This document shows, one piece after another, positions 151 to 33,610 of a stretch of DNA of 33,610 bases; the stretch's first letter is position 1, and each line of letters begins with the position of its first letter. Made by a program: the position numbers and the translations under genes. The notes under the pieces are model-generated. The model saw only the letters and a list, made by a program, of their open reading frames with translations. It was not told the origin of the DNA and searched no databases. This stretch comes from a virus. The DNA lies in the IMG/VR virus record IMGVR_UViG_3300035698_017170, positions 1 through 33,610 of that record; one strand, written 5' to 3'.

Positions 151-506
151 TAGTTTTGCTTAGTAGGAAGATCATGAGACCAAGGGAAAAAATCAGTCAC
201 TGAATCAATATTAACCCAACAAGTTCCAACAGGCTCTACTTCATCTAGATTGCCGTCTTTAATAAAATTCATGAACCTAGGGGTATCAGGAATAAAAGAA
301 GCCGACTCTAACTTTACAAAGTTATTATAGATACTTACAACCCTACCAACTGTATGATAAGTTACAGTTCTAAAGAAATAAGTTTTCCCAACTAAATCAT
401 CAAAGTGTCTGTTATCTGTATTAGAAACATTACTATCTGCAGTACCCACAGATTTAGACTCATCTTTTTTTACTGATTGTTCATACTCTACACCGTTAAT
501 TATCAT
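150..506 (-). CDS. Hypothetical 118-aa protein downstream of Nampt-like gene
   Basis: The start ATG at 506 is preceded by AGGAGAAAG inside the end of the Nampt-like gene (11-bp overlap), so it is the third gene of that operon. Residues 1-35 are polar, Ser/Asp-rich and probably disordered. Residues 36-115 form a compact domain with the segments LVGKTYFFRTVTYH, GRVVSI and a C-terminal PWSHDLP. I have an impression of similar small proteins in other tailed phages but cannot name the family. No catalytic motif is visible. Its stop overlaps the start of the first Ser-X gene (TAATG). Confidence 0.8.
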   Translation of the reverse strand: MIINGVEYEQSVKKDESKSVGTADSNVSNTDNRHFDDLVGKTYFFRTVTYHTVGRVVSIYNNFVKLESASFIPDTPRFMNFIKDGNLDEVEPVGTCWVNIDSVTDFFPWSHDLPTKQN

Positions 507-1980
507 TATTACTTTCTCCTTTTTTTTCTAATAAAACTCTTATATTATCTATTGATAAATCTTGAATCAATTTACCATCTTTAAAAACTACCTTTAACTC
601 TCCACCTGCCTCCTCATTTTCTGATTGATTATCTAATAATATATACTTCCCATCCTTTCTTTCTACTCTCAAGAGACCTTTCGCCGACTTTTTAATACCA
701 CTATCAGTTATAGGATTCTTAAAGATAGACCTCCTTTGCCCATTTACCACTCCACTAGTTGCTTTCATAGCAAAGCCAAGAGTGTCTCTAGTTAAATACT
801 CATAAGTAAAAGAACCAATGCCAAATACAATATTAGTACTAGCAAACCCTTTTTCTTTTAACTGTAGTAATATATCTTTTGCTCTCTGTATAGTAATAGA
901 ATCACCATATATGACTCCTACCTTGGCATTTAATTCCTTAAACCCTTTAGAGTTAATTTCTCCTCCAAATACATCCCACAATAACTCCACGACCCCTTTC
1001 TTTTCCCATATATCTTTCTTATCTATATCGCCACAGATAATTTTAACTGGATCTCCACTATCAGGTCTAATAACTACTTTTCCATCTCTACTATTAATTA
1101 TTTCTTTAAGTTTTGGTAAATACTCAACTAAAACCTCCCAGAGGTTCCAAGTATCAGATACAATAGAAATTACTCCAGAAGGATATACCTCTGTTATCAA
1201 TCTTTTGAAAGTATCAAATTCATGGCTATACCCGCATAAACTCATTACTGAGTGCTCTGTAGCAGCAACGGACCCACCGATATTATCACTTGGACCATAA
1301 TATTCATCTAGAGCCTGTATTGCTAAAGCCGTATCTGAACCATAGAAAGAAGTTAAATGCCCCATTCCAGAAAGAATAGCATCTTGTGTTCCAGACATAC
1401 CCCTAAAAGAAAAATCATGCCCTTGTATCCCAACAAAATCTATATTACTTGAAGTCTCTCTTGCTGCTTCAGTAAATATTTTCTTATACTGATGAGCAAT
1501 AGTGGCAGTAGTTATAGGCTTCCATAAGTAGCTAGAAAGTATTGACTCTAGGTAGTTAGTAAGCCAAAAAAAATCTGGATGAGTGTTAACTATGGTTAAG
1601 CAAGGCACCTTAATATCTACTAAGCTACCTTCTGGTAATGATTTTATTAGGATAGGCAAATACTGTAGCTTATGCAGAGCACTAATGTGGTCAACTCCTA
1701 TACTATTACCAACAATGCATTTGTCCATAAATTTCTTATATTCATTGACTACATCGCCTATATCTCTATTGAAAAAATTATTATTAAAAGCATCTACTAA
1801 AAAATCTTTTATAAAATACTGTAGCCCAAAAAACACAATCTTATCATTGAATTCAGCACCAAAATTAGACAACTTAGAGCTACGAGCTGTAAAGTTTGAA
1901 TACACTTCAGTAGTACCTTTAGGATATTGCCGATGATGATCTGCCTTATAAAAATCTATAGCTAATAATGGGTTTATCAT
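496..1980 (-). CDS. Nicotinamide phosphoribosyltransferase family protein (Nampt/NadV or NARP1 Namat type)
   Basis: 494 aa, the usual length for the NAMPT family. Visible landmarks are an N-terminal DFYKADHHRQYP (compare DSYKVTHYKQYP in NAMPT), HDFSFRGMSG near residue 190 holding the conserved Arg, GSDT near 215, the catalytic-type His in ATEHS near 242, RPDSGDP near 305 and YGDS plus FGIGS in the C-terminal half. The start chosen (1980) sits directly after GGAGAGG and overlaps the stop of the Prs-like gene as ATGA; an upstream in-frame ATG at 1992 lies inside that Shine-Dalgarno. Known family chemistry: nicotinamide plus PRPP gives NMN. In the phage NARP1 pathway the homologue Namat joins nicotinamide to ADPR-pyrophosphate to give NAD+. 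The Prs-like partner and the absence of an NMN adenylyltransferase favour NARP1, but substrate choice cannot be read from the sequence. Confidence 0.93.
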   Translation of the reverse strand: MINPLLAIDFYKADHHRQYPKGTTEVYSNFTARSSKLSNFGAEFNDKIVFFGLQYFIKDFLVDAFNNNFFNRDIGDVVNEYKKFMDKCIVGNSIGVDHISALHKLQYLPILIKSLPEGSLVDIKVPCLTIVNTHPDFFWLTNYLESILSSYLWKPITTATIAHQYKKIFTEAARETSSNIDFVGIQGHDFSFRGMSGTQDAILSGMGHLTSFYGSDTALAIQALDEYYGPSDNIGGSVAATEHSVMSLCGYSHEFDTFKRLITEVYPSGVISIVSDTWNLWEVLVEYLPKLKEIINSRDGKVVIRPDSGDPVKIICGDIDKKDIWEKKGVVELLWDVFGGEINSKGFKELNAKVGVIYGDSITIQRAKDILLQLKEKGFASTNIVFGIGSFTYEYLTRDTLGFAMKATSGVVNGQRRSIFKNPITDSGIKKSAKGLLRVERKDGKYILLDNQSENEEAGGELKVVFKDGKLIQDLSIDNIRVLLEKKGESNNDN

Positions 1981-2738
1981 TTTCCTCTCCATTCGTTAAT
2001 ATAAAATATATGCTCAAAATAAGCATCTAACTCTTTTCTTCCTTTAGAAAATATTGCATGTGTTATATATAAGTATAGAGAATTAACCATTTTATTTTTT
2101 AATTCTTTAGCTAAAGATATAAAGGTCATTCCCCCATCACAAATATCATCTAAAATAACTGCTTTCTTGCAATCACTAGGTATCTCTATAGAGATTGAGG
2201 TTATTTTTCCTGATTTGCAGTCTCTCACTTTCGTAGCTACAATAACTCTTGTGCAGTTAATATGATCAGCATACTTAGATACTTTATCAAAAGCTCCTTT
2301 ATCTGGGCATACTATATAACAAGAAGGATCTTCTAAAAGTAATTCAACTTTATTAGGGATCAAATCTATCCAGGTCTTAACAATTAAATTATTAATTAGC
2401 TTAGTACTAATATCTGAATGAACATCTAATGTAATAACCCTGCTTAAATTCATTCTATTTAGAATATCTGCCATTACTTCTAGACTAAATGCCTCGCCTA
2501 TATTGCAAGATCTATCTTGCCTAGCATAAGGTAAATATGGAATTGATAAAATAATTTCTGCATTATTTCTGACTTTTCTAATAGCATTTACACAAAGCAT
2601 GAGCTCTATGATATCAGTAGATGTATACAAATAAGCATAGATATTAACTATCCGATTATAAGAGATAGGAACTATTACTTGAGACTCACCCCCGGGGAAG
2701 CTAAATCTATGTATTTCTTTACCATCTATTATAATCAT
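1977..2738 (-). CDS. Ribose-phosphate pyrophosphokinase family protein (Prs-like; possible NARP1 ADPR-PP synthetase, Adps)
   Basis: 253 aa, shorter than the roughly 315 aa of bacterial Prs. Type I phosphoribosyltransferase fold with PYLPYARQDR (68-76), LDVHSD (104-109), CPDKGA (144-149), VATKVRD (167-173) and the PRPP-loop segment DDICDGGMT (197-205; DDxxDTGGT in Prs). Known Prs makes PRPP from ribose-5-P and ATP; Adps of the NARP1 pathway is a homologue that pyrophosphorylates ADP-ribose. Linkage to a Nampt-like gene by a 4-bp ATGA overlap suggests the latter (inference). It has a strong AGGAGGT ribosome site. A terminator lies about 100 bp upstream, and a weak promoter (TTGCTT at 2823-2818, 17-bp spacer, TAACGA) may restart transcription here. 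Confidence 0.9.
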   Translation of the reverse strand: MIIIDGKEIHRFSFPGGESQVIVPISYNRIVNIYAYLYTSTDIIELMLCVNAIRKVRNNAEIILSIPYLPYARQDRSCNIGEAFSLEVMADILNRMNLSRVITLDVHSDISTKLINNLIVKTWIDLIPNKVELLLEDPSCYIVCPDKGAFDKVSKYADHINCTRVIVATKVRDCKSGKITSISIEIPSDCKKAVILDDICDGGMTFISLAKELKNKMVNSLYLYITHAIFSKGRKELDAYFEHIFYINEWRGK

Positions 2739-23653: not shown

Positions 23654-24790
23654 CTATGCAGTTTTGAAACCATATACTATACAACGACATGCTGGAGCAT
23701 CTAATCCACCACCATCAACTTGTCTAATACGTAAAGTTCCAAGAGCAGCAATAACAGAGTTAGCATGGTAAAGATTACCACAGTAAGCCTTAGAGTTATC
23801 TACTCCACCTACATTTAATACATCACTAATAGCAGCAGCTGCACCAGTCTGTAGTTGAATGGTATCGCCTGGAGTTCCATTTTCTAAGTTAATAACTTCA
23901 AAACCAGTAATGGTCATTTTATAAGTTAAAACTTTATCAATGTTAGCAGTTGCATTGCCAGTTGTATCAAATACAAGAACTAAAGGAGAACCAGCTGCTA
24001 CACCATCTACTGCATAAGTGTTCAACTCAGAACCACCAACAGCATTAGCTACGATCTTAGCAGAAGTAACAGAATTAGCACCAAGAGCAGCACTATTAAC
24101 AGCACCTGCAAATATCTTAATAGATGTTACAGCAGCAGTTCCTAATGCAGTGGCATTAACAGAACCAGCAGCATAATGTGCAGAGTCTATAGAACCATCT
24201 ACATAATGTTCACTATCAACTGAGTTATCAGCTAACTTAGAACCATCAACAGCATCAGCTCCTAAAGCAGTTGAATCAACAGCACCTGCAGCAAAGTGAG
24301 ATGAATCAATAGAACCAGCAGTCATATGTTCAGAGTCAACTGCATTATCAGCTAACTTATCACCATTAACTGCATCAGCACCCAATGTAGTAGTATCTAC
24401 TGAGCCAGCTGCATAATGCGCTGTATCAATTGAACCATCTACATAGTGTTCTGAATCTACAGAATTATCTGCAAGTTTAGAACCATCAACAGCATCAGCT
24501 GCTAATTTGGCAGTAGTTATAGAACCATCAGGAACAGTAGCACCACTATGAACATAACCAGTAACAGTAACAGTAGCTGCATCAGATGCAGAGTTTACAT
24601 AGACTAACTCTATGCCATCTGAACCTAATACTTCTAAAGTATCATACTGTCTAAGTTGGCCAGTAACACTATTAAAATAACCACTTGCTTGTATTGTTGC
24701 TAAAGAATCACTTAAGTTACCGTATTTCCAAGATCTATTACCTTGGCTACCAGCAGGACCCATATAGGATAAATTACCCGTAAAAGCCAT
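23654..24790 (-). CDS. Head/tail fibre-like protein with decapeptide-repeat stalk (378 aa)
   Basis: Three parts. Residues 1-80 match the N-terminus of the 201-aa paralogue downstream of the capsid gene (MAFxGNL...GPAG...W.Y....D..A...A.GYFN). Residues 81-270 are a strict 10-residue repeat, (V/I)DxxxLAxxS, with a nearly perfect 40-residue super-repeat at 101-220. Residues 270-378 match the paralogue's C-terminus (GDTIQLQTG...R.nQ...APACR.IVYG). The repeat region should form a trimeric rod. It is next to the capsid gene, so probably a capsid-surface fibre. Confidence 0.8.
   Translation of the reverse strand: MAFTGNLSYMGPAGSQGNRSWKYGNLSDSLATIQASGYFNSVTGQLRQYDTLEVLGSDGIELVYVNSASDAATVTVTGYVHSGATVPDGSITTAKLAADAVDGSKLADNSVDSEHYVDGSIDTAHYAAGSVDTTTLGADAVNGDKLADNAVDSEHMTAGSIDSSHFAAGAVDSTALGADAVDGSKLADNSVDSEHYVDGSIDSAHYAAGSVNATALGTAAVTSIKIFAGAVNSAALGANSVTSAKIVANAVGGSELNTYAVDGVAAGSPLVLVFDTTGNATANIDKVLTYKMTITGFEVINLENGTPGDTIQLQTGAAAAISDVLNVGGVDNSKAYCGNLYHANSVIAALGTLRIRQVDGGGLDAPACRCIVYGFKTA
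23981..24550 (-). repeat. Decapeptide-coding repeat (30 bp; 120-bp super-repeat)
   Basis: Nineteen consecutive decapeptides. The 120-bp units at 24490-24371, 24370-24251 and 24250-24131 encode DGSKLADNSVDSEH and its variants, with synonymous changes between copies, so the protein rather than the DNA is conserved. Confidence 0.85.
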
Positions 24791-31656: not shown

Positions 31657-32151
31657 CTAATGCACTTCAAACTTCTCCATAAATAATATGGAATCTTCTA
31701 AAATTACTACAGCGTTAAAAGAACTTAATATCTTAGAATCAAAAGGCTTACATATAATGGCATATCCATCTGGAGTTTTCTTCATAGAAATTTTCTTATT
31801 ACCTAATATATCACTTACTTCACATATTATATTTTCATTAAAAACATCTACACGAAGAAAGCTCTCTGCTTTATTTTCAGGTTTCATTAATAAATCTTTC
31901 CATAACTTATCTACATTATGATTTTGCTCTATATTCTCCATAAGTACTTTTATAAGTTCTATTTTAGCTTTTTTGAAGGATCTTTTATTAACTGATCTAT
32001 AGATAGTCCATATTCCAGAATCCATGCCTGCTAAAGATTTAAGTGTAATTATTACCCTACCAACATTTCTTGTACATGTCTCAACATGGCATGTTTCTTC
32101 GCCACCTGTATAATTATCATCATTTTGCCTTATAGCCATATATAGATGCAT
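31657..32151 (-). CDS. Hypothetical protein (164 aa)
   Basis: Start overlaps the endonuclease stop as TAATG. N-terminal CHVETCTRN pair of Cys, then alternating helices and strands. C-terminal half DVFNENIICEVSDILGNKKIS...ILEDSILFMEKF suggests a small alpha/beta domain. I do not recognise the family. Confidence 0.65.
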   Translation of the reverse strand: MHLYMAIRQNDDNYTGGEETCHVETCTRNVGRVIITLKSLAGMDSGIWTIYRSVNKRSFKKAKIELIKVLMENIEQNHNVDKLWKDLLMKPENKAESFLRVDVFNENIICEVSDILGNKKISMKKTPDGYAIICKPFDSKILSSFNAVVILEDSILFMEKFEVH

Positions 32152-32486
32152 TAACTAACCCCTAAACATTGTAATATCCAACCAATAGCTTCACCACTCT
32201 GCACTTGATCACCTGTAACCCTTAGAACTCTGTAGCCAATAGTACAGGCTGTATTATATTTCTCACAATCTCTCTGAAAGCCAATAGGCCTAACATGACG
32301 ACCATTAGTCCATGTTCCACCTTCGGTCTCACATATTAGCATCTCATCAGGCCAACAAAAGTCTGCTCTCCACTTTCTAGTTGGGTAGAATTTATACTCA
32401 CGTATAGGCAATGGTATATTATGCAATGCAGACATAGCTCTAATATGTACCCATAATGTTTCTTCTATTTTAGATAGCTTACCCAT
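32151..32486 (-). CDS. PD-(D/E)XK-type endonuclease (Vsr/DUF559-like)
   Basis: 111 aa. Core FYPTRKWRADFCWPDEMLICETEGGTW supplies the D...ExE of the PD-(D/E)XK fold (Asp in RADF, Glu in CETEGG). NGRHVRPIGFQRDCEKYNTACTIGYRVLRVTGDQV matches small phage nucleases of this family. Likely cuts branched or damaged DNA; a role in resolving recombination products before packaging is inference. Confidence 0.8.
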   Translation of the reverse strand: MGKLSKIEETLWVHIRAMSALHNIPLPIREYKFYPTRKWRADFCWPDEMLICETEGGTWTNGRHVRPIGFQRDCEKYNTACTIGYRVLRVTGDQVQSGEAIGWILQCLGVS

Positions 32487-32684: not shown

Positions 32685-32726
32685 TCACAAACTTGACTTA
32701 GACCCTTTCTACATAAATATATTCAT
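32685..32726 (-). pseudogene. Decayed Ser-X cassette remnant
   Basis: Directly after peptide B's stop, ATGAATATATTTATG (the cassette start) is followed at once by TAG, then by TCTAAGTCAAGT and TGA in the same frame: a cassette that lost its body. The start overlaps the stop of B by ATGA-type junction. Confidence 0.6.
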
Positions 32727-32890
32727 CTACCACTCTTAGACCTAGACCTAGCCCCGGACCAAGACCCAGACCAAGACCTATCCCAATACCTAGACCTTGA
32801 CCTAGAACTAGAGCTAGAGCTAGACCAAGACCTATACCAAGACCCAGACCTAGACCTAGACCTAGCTTTCATCATCATAAATATGTTCAT
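32723..32890 (-). CDS. Ser-X repeat peptide B (55 aa)
   Basis: ATG at 32890. Begins MNIFMMMKARSRSRSG (type 2), continues as Ser with Arg, Gly, Trp, Tyr and a poly-Ser stretch, ends KSGR. Coupled to C by ATGA. Same hexamer composition as its relatives. Function unknown. Confidence 0.7.
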   Translation of the reverse strand: MNIFMMMKARSRSRSGSWYRSWSSSSSSSRSRSRYWDRSWSGSWSGARSRSKSGR

Positions 32891-33072
32891 TTCACACTCC
32901 TAGACCCAGACCAAGACCTAGACCTAGACCTAGCCCCATACCCAGACATAGACCCAGACCAAGACCAAAACCCAGACCCAGTCCAAGACCCAGACTTAGA
33001 CTTAGACCAAGACCCAGACACAGACTTAGACACAGACTTAGACACAGACTTAGACATCATAAATATGTTCAT
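32887..33072 (-). CDS. Ser-X repeat peptide C (61 aa)
   Basis: ATG at 33072 behind GGAGTG; a TTG four codons upstream is not needed. Begins MNIFMMSKSVSKSVSKSVSG (type 1), then W/G/K/R alternating with Ser, ending SGSRSVK. The ending overlaps B's start. Spaced 37 bp from D rather than overlapped. Confidence 0.72.
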   Translation of the reverse strand: MNIFMMSKSVSKSVSKSVSGSWSKSKSGSWTGSGFWSWSGSMSGYGARSRSRSWSGSRSVK

Positions 33073-33109
33073 TTCACACTCCAAGTACTATAAAAGAACC
33101 CTAACTATG

Positions 33110-33301
33110 CTAAGACCTATACCTATACCTAGAACTAGAACTAGAACTAGACCTACACCTTGACCCAGGCATATACCAAAACCAAAACCAAGACCTAGAC
33201 CCAGACCTAGACCTAGACCTAGACTTAGAACCAGACCTACACCAAGACCCAGACTTAGAACTAGTCCAAGACCTAGCTTTCATCATCATAAATATATTCA
33301 T
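33110..33301 (-). CDS. Ser-X repeat peptide D (63 aa)
   Basis: Begins MNIFMMMKARSWTSSKSG (type 2); middle contains SRSWFWFWYMPGSRC, the most deviant stretch; ends RYRYRS. ATG overlaps the stop of E by ATGA. It lacks the SVK ending, and 37 bp follow before C. Confidence 0.7.
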   Translation of the reverse strand: MNIFMMMKARSWTSSKSGSWCRSGSKSRSRSRSGSRSWFWFWYMPGSRCRSSSSSSSRYRYRS

Positions 33302-33489
33302 TTCACACTCTTATACTTAGTCCCAGACCCAGACCCAGTCCAAGACCCCGACCAACACCAAGACCCAGACCAAGACCAAGACCCCGACCTAGAACAAGAC
33401 CTAGACCAAGACCAAGACCTAGACCCAGATTTAGACTTAGATTTAGACTTAGATTTAGACACAGACTTAGACATCATAAATATATTCAT
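33298..33489 (-). CDS. Ser-X repeat peptide E (63 aa)
   Basis: Begins MNIFMMSKSVSKSKSK (type 1), then G/R/W/C alternating with Ser, ending GTKYKSVK. ATG overlaps F's stop by ATGA, with AGGAGTG in front supplied by F's last codons. Nearly identical start to C and A. Confidence 0.72.
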   Translation of the reverse strand: MNIFMMSKSVSKSKSKSKSKSGSRSWSWSRSCSRSGSWSWSGSWCWSGSWTGSGSGTKYKSVK

Positions 33490-33610
33490 TTCACACTCCT
33501 AGACCCGGACCTAGACCTTGACCTAGACCCAGACCTATACATAGACCTAGCCCCTGACCAAGACCAAGACCAAGACCCGGACCTAGACCTAGACCCAGAC
33601 CAAGACCTAG
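33486..33610 (-). CDS. Ser-X repeat peptide F (C-terminal part, runs off right edge)
   Basis: Forty codons plus stop, ending SGSRSVK as C does. Starts outside the window. On a circular map it would continue peptide A (left edge) if one base is added at the joint, giving a peptide of about 90 residues, the longest of the family. Confidence 0.68.
   Translation of the reverse strand, partial: RSWSGSRSRSGSWSWSWSGARSMYRSGSRSRSRSGSRSVK

Follow-up and report, generated by a model that had tools for sequence, protein, structure and literature searches.

Predicted Sm-like proteins and translationally coupled Ser-X peptides form a recurrent two-gene module in phage genomes

The two ends of a 33,610-base virus genome lie within a run of short genes built from one degenerate hexamer, whose translations alternate serine with a second, variable residue. 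Are such arrays truly coding, and what would the peptides do for a phage? We addressed these questions in the complete record itself (IMGVR_UViG_3300035698_017170; its whole length is called the window below) and in viral and cellular genomes.

The window holds five to six Ser-X genes and a remnant on the minus strand, each consisting of a leader followed by (Ser-X)n. Four are intact, and every one opens with MNIFMM: a 63-aa gene at 33298-33489, with the Shine-Dalgarno sequence AGGAG, an ATGA overlap with the preceding gene, a net charge of +12 and 7 Trp; a second 63-aa gene at 33110-33301, which carries the second leader type (MNIFMMMKARS) and a net charge of +14; a 61-aa gene at 32887-33072, with the Shine-Dalgarno sequence GGAG and a net charge of +10; and a 55-aa gene at 32723-32890, with an ATGA overlap and a net charge of +12. 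In the remnant, at about 32685-32726, an MNIFM leader is followed by a stop and then a few hexamers. Shine-Dalgarno-like GGAG or AGAG lies 8-10 nt 5' of the ATG in the intact genes, and ATGA overlaps join most neighbours, as an earlier sequence-only reading had described. Tandem Repeats Finder (TRF) reports a period of 6 and about 144 copies of the unit TCTNGG, with TCT and NGG dominant. The alternation of Ser with Arg, Lys, Trp or Gly in that reading holds as an alternation, but the list of residues was too short, since Y, F, T, A, C, M, V and S also occur at X.

At the record's edges, a minus-strand gene at 1-150 (MNIFMMSKSVSKSKSKSKSKSGSWSGSW...; assigned by translation and start context) is the first in the array, and only its 5' part is present before the contig ends. 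On the other side, the 3' part of a minus-strand gene at 33486-33608 (...RSGSRSRSRSGSRSVK*; assigned by translation) lacks its 5' end. As the array takes in both ends of the record, the simplest reading is a single array on a circular map, with the contig opened within the repeat. The translations therefore bear out the earlier count of at least five minus-strand genes plus a remnant, but not a sixth gene at 1-150, because 1-150 and 33486-33610 are two sides of one broken array.

A pattern of five TCTNGG hexamers matched more than 118 IMG/VR contigs, mostly as short open reading frames with a leader and (Ser-X)n. Scans with several Ser codons brought the total to at least 290 mixed (S-[R/G/W])n arrays in at least 191 loci, nearly all of them viral. 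Hundreds of unrelated viral contigs show this architecture, far more than chance would give. The exact MNIFMM leader, proposed earlier as a search handle, was not found in the metagenomic viruses, while (SX)n behind other leaders is common there. One contig, L008 (IMGVR_UViG_3300042987_003260), contains about 13 tandem Ser-X genes (MITKRTKWRRGSG...).

Most of what the five-hexamer pattern matched in bacterial and archaeal genomes was monomorphic TCTCGG microsatellite lacking a start. Just two matches were clear exceptions, L269 and L299, both of them contigs of phage-like character from MAGs with the label Patescibacteria; each holds the full module described below, a Sm-like gene plus a Ser-X gene. 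The Sm-like partner gene was present in 1 of 380 genomes of a Patescibacteria sample, and in 0 of 399 and 0 of 396 genomes of two other phylum samples, which included no known positive and carry little weight. A Kofleriaceae MAG (JAGPCY...) and other Myxococcota (L243-L362, e.g. L253, L265, L279 and L295) have very many TCTCGG/CCGAGA microsatellites spread over their contigs, unrelated to the phage module. An array match in Synechococcus S-SCSM1 lies antisense to a virion gene and was set aside.

Several lines of evidence indicate that the Ser-X frame is translated. Among 6,962 TCN-hexamers, changes that create TAG were seen 2 times against 134 expected from sister codons, and changes that create TGA 3 times against 39 (stop avoidance, p about 1e-57), whereas a simple-sequence repeat with no coding role predicts no constraint on frame or stops. 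Of 148 arrays, 135 have a start codon that opens into the Ser-X frame, compared with 14 and 20 for the other frames. We looked for stops and frameshifts throughout the hexamers of relatives and instead found stops avoided and an open reading frame spanning the whole array in 281 of 290 cases. Together, the avoided stops, in-frame starts and translational coupling establish, at the genomic level, that the Ser-X peptides are products of genuine coding genes, in agreement with the short peptide genes first proposed. The suggestion of a DNA-level element that is coding only by coincidence is not supported: 23 of the 104 arrays found without the array pattern use AGC or AGT for Ser, losing the DNA motif and keeping the peptide. 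AGC and TCN share no possible DNA motif, which argues that the peptide is the thing kept.

We also considered other products of the repeat. The Leu-Gly frame (CTN GGT) was rejected because the starts sit in the Ser-X frame; single-step stops are impossible in the Leu-Gly frame, and in TCG arrays the same frame would read Arg-Gly. A GGTC motif every 6 bp is strong in TCT-selected arrays, which is an ascertainment effect, as arrays found through the partner gene use TCG, AGC, TCT, TCA or AGT. Finally, we considered NGG codons as a peptidyl-tRNA drop-off trap, but the reported effect concerns codons immediately after the start (PMC12204400 and others), and the arrays start only after a leader of about 8-14 residues.

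Within an array, Ser is written with a single codon (about 97% dominance), and the choice varies between arrays. Arg is AGG or CGG, and few arrays mix them: just one Arg codon is used in 139 of 162, and the minor codon has a share of 2.9%, compared with 43% expected under free mixing. As a control for bias, we collected modules through the partner gene only, without TCN search patterns. Ser codons in this set were TCG (55), AGC (21), TCT (15), TCA (11) and AGT (2); NGG made up 88% of X codons, and a single Arg codon was used in 76 of 83 arrays, with a minor share of.022. Peptides of this set have a median length of 66 aa, a net charge of +10 and 7 Trp. R, G and W occur together in 175 of 191, and their shares of X are R.31, G.32 and W.27. 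NGG is the sole codon set in which Arg, Gly and Trp lie one base apart, and by the logic of the genetic code this would explain its use. Across 162 arrays, the last base of the Ser codon and the first of the Arg codon are coupled (T goes with A and G with C) more strongly than locus GC content explains (LRT 22.9, 1 df). The L611 array has no AGG or CGG Arg units and carries Lys instead (SGSKSWSKSG...), which suggests that positive charge, not Arg itself, can suffice.

Synonymous third-position changes per site are rarer than amino-acid changes inside the arrays, so individual units appear weakly constrained and composition does not. Array comparisons show selection on peptide composition rather than on unit order, with order turning over fast. 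The partners of L591 and L595 are identical at 240/240 nt, and their arrays encode 101 and 61 aa, a difference that is in frame; those of L379 and L496 are identical over 240 nt, with arrays alike in little beyond the leader. Some array length differences could be due to assembly collapse. Internal repeats in unit order exceed shuffles in 49 of 181 arrays. The best account is that arrays change by duplication, deletion and shuffling of units under selection for frame; such in-frame change would leave each array a single codon for Ser and a single one for Arg, with selection holding R, G and W.

The first account of the array missed the gene that heads it. Directly upstream, on the minus strand at 150-506, lies a 118-aa open reading frame (...YFFRTVTYHTVGRVVSIYNNFVKLESASFIPDTPRF...EVEP...) whose stop overlaps the first Ser-X start (TAATG) and whose family occurs in hundreds of viral contigs. 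This family, window gene included, accounts for 42 of 121 upstream neighbours of arrays. With a family profile, a partner was found at most 300 nt upstream in 125 of 168 evaluable array clusters, compared with 1 of 231 control loci, the one being L231, itself a truncated Ser-X locus. About a quarter of the evaluable clusters have no recognisable partner. Two partner alignments matched 471 and 312 viral loci, possibly overlapping sets. In the reverse test, which starts from the partner and does not use the arrays, a Ser-X gene lay at most 250 nt downstream in 75 of 79 and 64 of 79 loci checked, counts in which the automatic calls for L560, L551, L552 and L554 are doubtful and some negatives are arrays without a start (L483, L546). 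For one partner subfamily, 14 of 79 loci have no adjacent Ser-X gene. Partner and Ser-X gene overlap as ATGA in 150 of 276 modules.

The partner family has three subfamilies, and the type of Ser-X leader tracks them: xxRxG[FY]D leaders occur with the A5 subfamily in 79 of 111 cases and basic K-x-K-[YW] leaders with the short subfamily in 35 of 61, while the A4 subfamily, to which the window gene belongs, has mostly neutral leaders. This matching could reflect shared ancestry instead of contact. The two-gene module of a Sm-like gene and a Ser-X gene is well supported; its function, discussed below, is a matter of inference.

The AlphaFold2 model of the window partner is a five-strand barrel with a pLDDT of about 97 over residues 40-110 and a disordered N-terminus. 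In the PDB, Foldseek ranks archaeal SmAP1 and LSm/Sm subunits highest (E 1.7e-4; TM, normalised by target length, about 0.7), with a TMt of about 0.72 for the predicted model against 1i8f. The top PDB matches listed are Sm/LSm, snRNP/spliceosome or NatC-subunit chains, overwhelmingly Sm/LSm or spliceosome. The divergent subfamily of L299 was again modelled as Sm (1i8f TM 0.70/0.85). At the sequence level, the LSm (Sm1/Sm2) profile gave no match in the partner, nor did any relevant Pfam, NCBIfam or PHROG family at cut-off; by eye, one subfamily has an Sm2-like 'RG' in its fourth strand. The partner is thus predicted to be a Sm/LSm barrel in two divergent subfamilies.

The window phage is podovirus-like, with a head-tail connector (1e-48), an ERF recombinase, NAMPT and a ribose-phosphate pyrophosphokinase-like gene. 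Its TerL has at most 37% identity to known phages, and a search for sister phages in IMG/VR through TerL found none. The NAMPT-type phosphoribosyltransferase gene (496-1992, minus strand; Pfam NAPRTase 4e-38, NAMPT_N 5e-11) is the module's immediate upstream neighbour. Together with the adjacent ribose-phosphate pyrophosphokinase-like gene (both within 496-2738, minus strand), it is consistent with an NAD-restoring, NARP1-like pair. Downstream, at 32151-32486 on the minus strand, is a DUF559/very-short-patch-repair-type endonuclease gene (tblastn 47% to Bordetella phage PHB09; Pfam DUF559 just above cut-off). The earlier placement of the block between a NARP1-like operon and endonuclease/terminase genes needs correction: the conserved gene at 150-506 heads the array, so that the block stands directly 3' of NAMPT and the Sm-like gene. 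Where neighbours of the modules have a known function, it is mostly replication, recombination, nuclease action or packaging, which makes action in the replication phase likely.

We propose, with a probability of about 0.42, that the module consists of a Sm-like RNA-binding protein and coupled cationic Ser-X peptides that act on nucleic acid. Its first part would be a small protein of predicted Sm/LSm fold; its second, one or more translationally coupled genes for strongly cationic peptides expected to be disordered, each with a short leader and about 20-40 Ser-X units in which X is about one third each Arg, Gly and Trp. The Sm-like protein may form an RNA-binding ring, to which the Ser-X peptides would attach through their leaders. 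Trp and Arg 'stickers' and Ser and Gly 'spacers', with a net charge of about +10, could then bind RNA or DNA in bulk, each peptide working like the basic or disordered tail of a Sm, LSm or Hfq protein, but detached from it. Such an assembly might coat or condense phage or host nucleic acid during replication. Composition and the coding tests support the SR/RGG feature of a long Arg-containing low-complexity stretch in the translated frame, and the disordered RS-like, nucleic-acid-binding or condensate-forming peptide suggested early on remains the most reasonable class of function, itself inferred. More tentatively, a Sm-like ring and the peptide, a sticker-spacer chain encoded by its own gene and constantly reshuffled, might together build a phage ribonucleoprotein or a condensate of nucleic acid, a reading that is possible but short of probable.

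Other explanations account for part of these data. The peptide might act as an anti-defence factor or decoy, a fast-evolving disordered chain that saturates a host nuclease or sensor, its variability reflecting an arms race. The very fast array turnover beside near-identical partners, the excess of nonsynonymous over synonymous changes per site inside arrays and the essentially virus-restricted distribution within our searches all fit, but such turnover is expected of any repeat-encoded disordered peptide, and a composition so constant across viruses points to a common target rather than to many host-specific ones; we regard this reading as unlikely. Rather less credence goes to a toxin-antitoxin-like or host-takeover pair, in which a harmful, membrane- or ribosome-active Ser-X peptide would be held or neutralised by the co-translated Sm-like barrel. 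Two small overlapping genes are a type II feature, the peptides are cationic and rich in Trp and Arg, and leader type tracks partner subfamily. However, Ser makes up half of each repeat, unlike in membrane-active R/W peptides, several peptide copies accompany each partner, and PADLOC gives no match. The usual home of toxin-antitoxin pairs is bacterial genomes, and the module is almost absent from those sampled.

If instead the array transcript were the functional object, as a repeat RNA to which the Sm-like protein binds, translation being secondary, one would cite the window array, which folds better than its shuffles (z -7.5), the coupling of the Ser and Arg bases and the RNA-binding type of the predicted partner fold. 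Yet folding is not conserved: mean z is -4.5 for TCT and -2.3 for AGY arrays but +1.7 for TCG and +3.8 for TCA arrays, and unit order is not optimised for it (z 0.00), on which grounds we rejected a hairpin RNA as the functional object. AGC-type arrays also keep the peptide and lose the sequence motif, and stops are avoided in the Ser-X frame, leaving this reading improbable. A virion or genome-packaging role, with basic peptides condensing phage DNA or entering the capsid, is more improbable still. The composition of cationic Arg/Ser peptides recalls that of protamines, terminase genes lie close to some modules and the window module sits between replication-side and packaging-side genes, but most neighbours of known function serve replication, recombination or nuclease activity and not the head, and a Sm-like partner would be unexpected. 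For the family as a whole, a non-functional hexamer microsatellite or assembly artefact is refuted: the repeats are low-complexity, and monomorphic TCTCGG microsatellites without starts do exist in bacterial chromosomes, but arrays of mixed units, complete with leader, start and conserved partner, turn up in two GenBank phage genomes and hundreds of independent contigs, with the stop avoidance given above.

The proposed nucleic-acid-binding module invites comparison with known systems. With archaeal SmAP1 (1i8f), human and yeast Sm and LSm proteins and bacterial Hfq, the partner shares the predicted Sm barrel; it differs in having no detectable sequence homology to the LSm profile and in a 'tail' encoded by a separate, overlapping and often multi-copy gene. 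In Hfq, a disordered C-terminal region tunes RNA annealing (PMC5606850, PMC6561178). RGG/RG and SR-type domains likewise combine Arg with Gly or Ser and an aromatic residue, and as cationic, disordered sequences are expected to bind RNA and phase-separate; RG-rich condensates offer a parallel for multivalent Arg/Trp contacts (PMC10881997). The phage peptides differ in their strict alternation of Ser with Arg, Gly or Trp, in using Trp as the aromatic and in being free-standing, at about 66 aa. Homology of the Ser-X peptides to known SR/RGG families was not found in Pfam, PHROG or NCBIfam. Borg elements also have fast-evolving tandem repeats, extrachromosomal, that give disordered protein under in-frame selection (PMC9879509). 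Borg repeats, however, are perfect amino-acid repeats inside many different proteins (PMC9879509), whereas the phage module has one gene family, a dipeptide unit of three types, a fixed partner and phage genomes as its setting.

The same module occurs in the Manatee Spring phages MW202573.1 (UOF78857.1/UOF78858.1) and MW202825.1 (a homologous pair), as a Sm-like protein followed by MNAAIIRAGLDASWSWSW...; these genes are labelled hypothetical or unannotated, with no function assigned in GenBank. Neither the peptide strings nor phage Sm-like/low-complexity combinations led our literature searches to a description of the module or of the S-[RGW] grammar, and no family in the curated libraries Pfam, PHROG, NCBIfam and PADLOC fits the Sm-like or the Ser-X gene. 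Neither gene thus belongs to a curated family, yet the pair is present in hundreds of metagenomic phage contigs, being almost absent from isolates and sampled bacterial genomes. The module extends proteins of predicted Sm fold to a recurrent phage operon and, as a simple two-gene system, lends itself to expression and testing. The arrays also provide a large natural data set of a disordered protein held to composition, with R, G and W about equal and Ser alternating, and free in order, of direct relevance to the sticker-and-spacer view of condensates. If the condensate proposal is true, the system would be a minimal grammar of phase separation, found in nature and upheld solely by selection for composition.

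Other repeats were noted alongside. Rfam gave no match across the whole window, and a 120-bp tandem repeat of 3.2 copies at 24129-24506, within the gene at 23654-24790, encodes SVDSEHYVDGSIDSAHYAAGS-like repeats. At L037:871-1461 and L051:7296-7940, the upstream neighbour carries GIxAGxGI-type repeats, whose copy number differs between related contigs.
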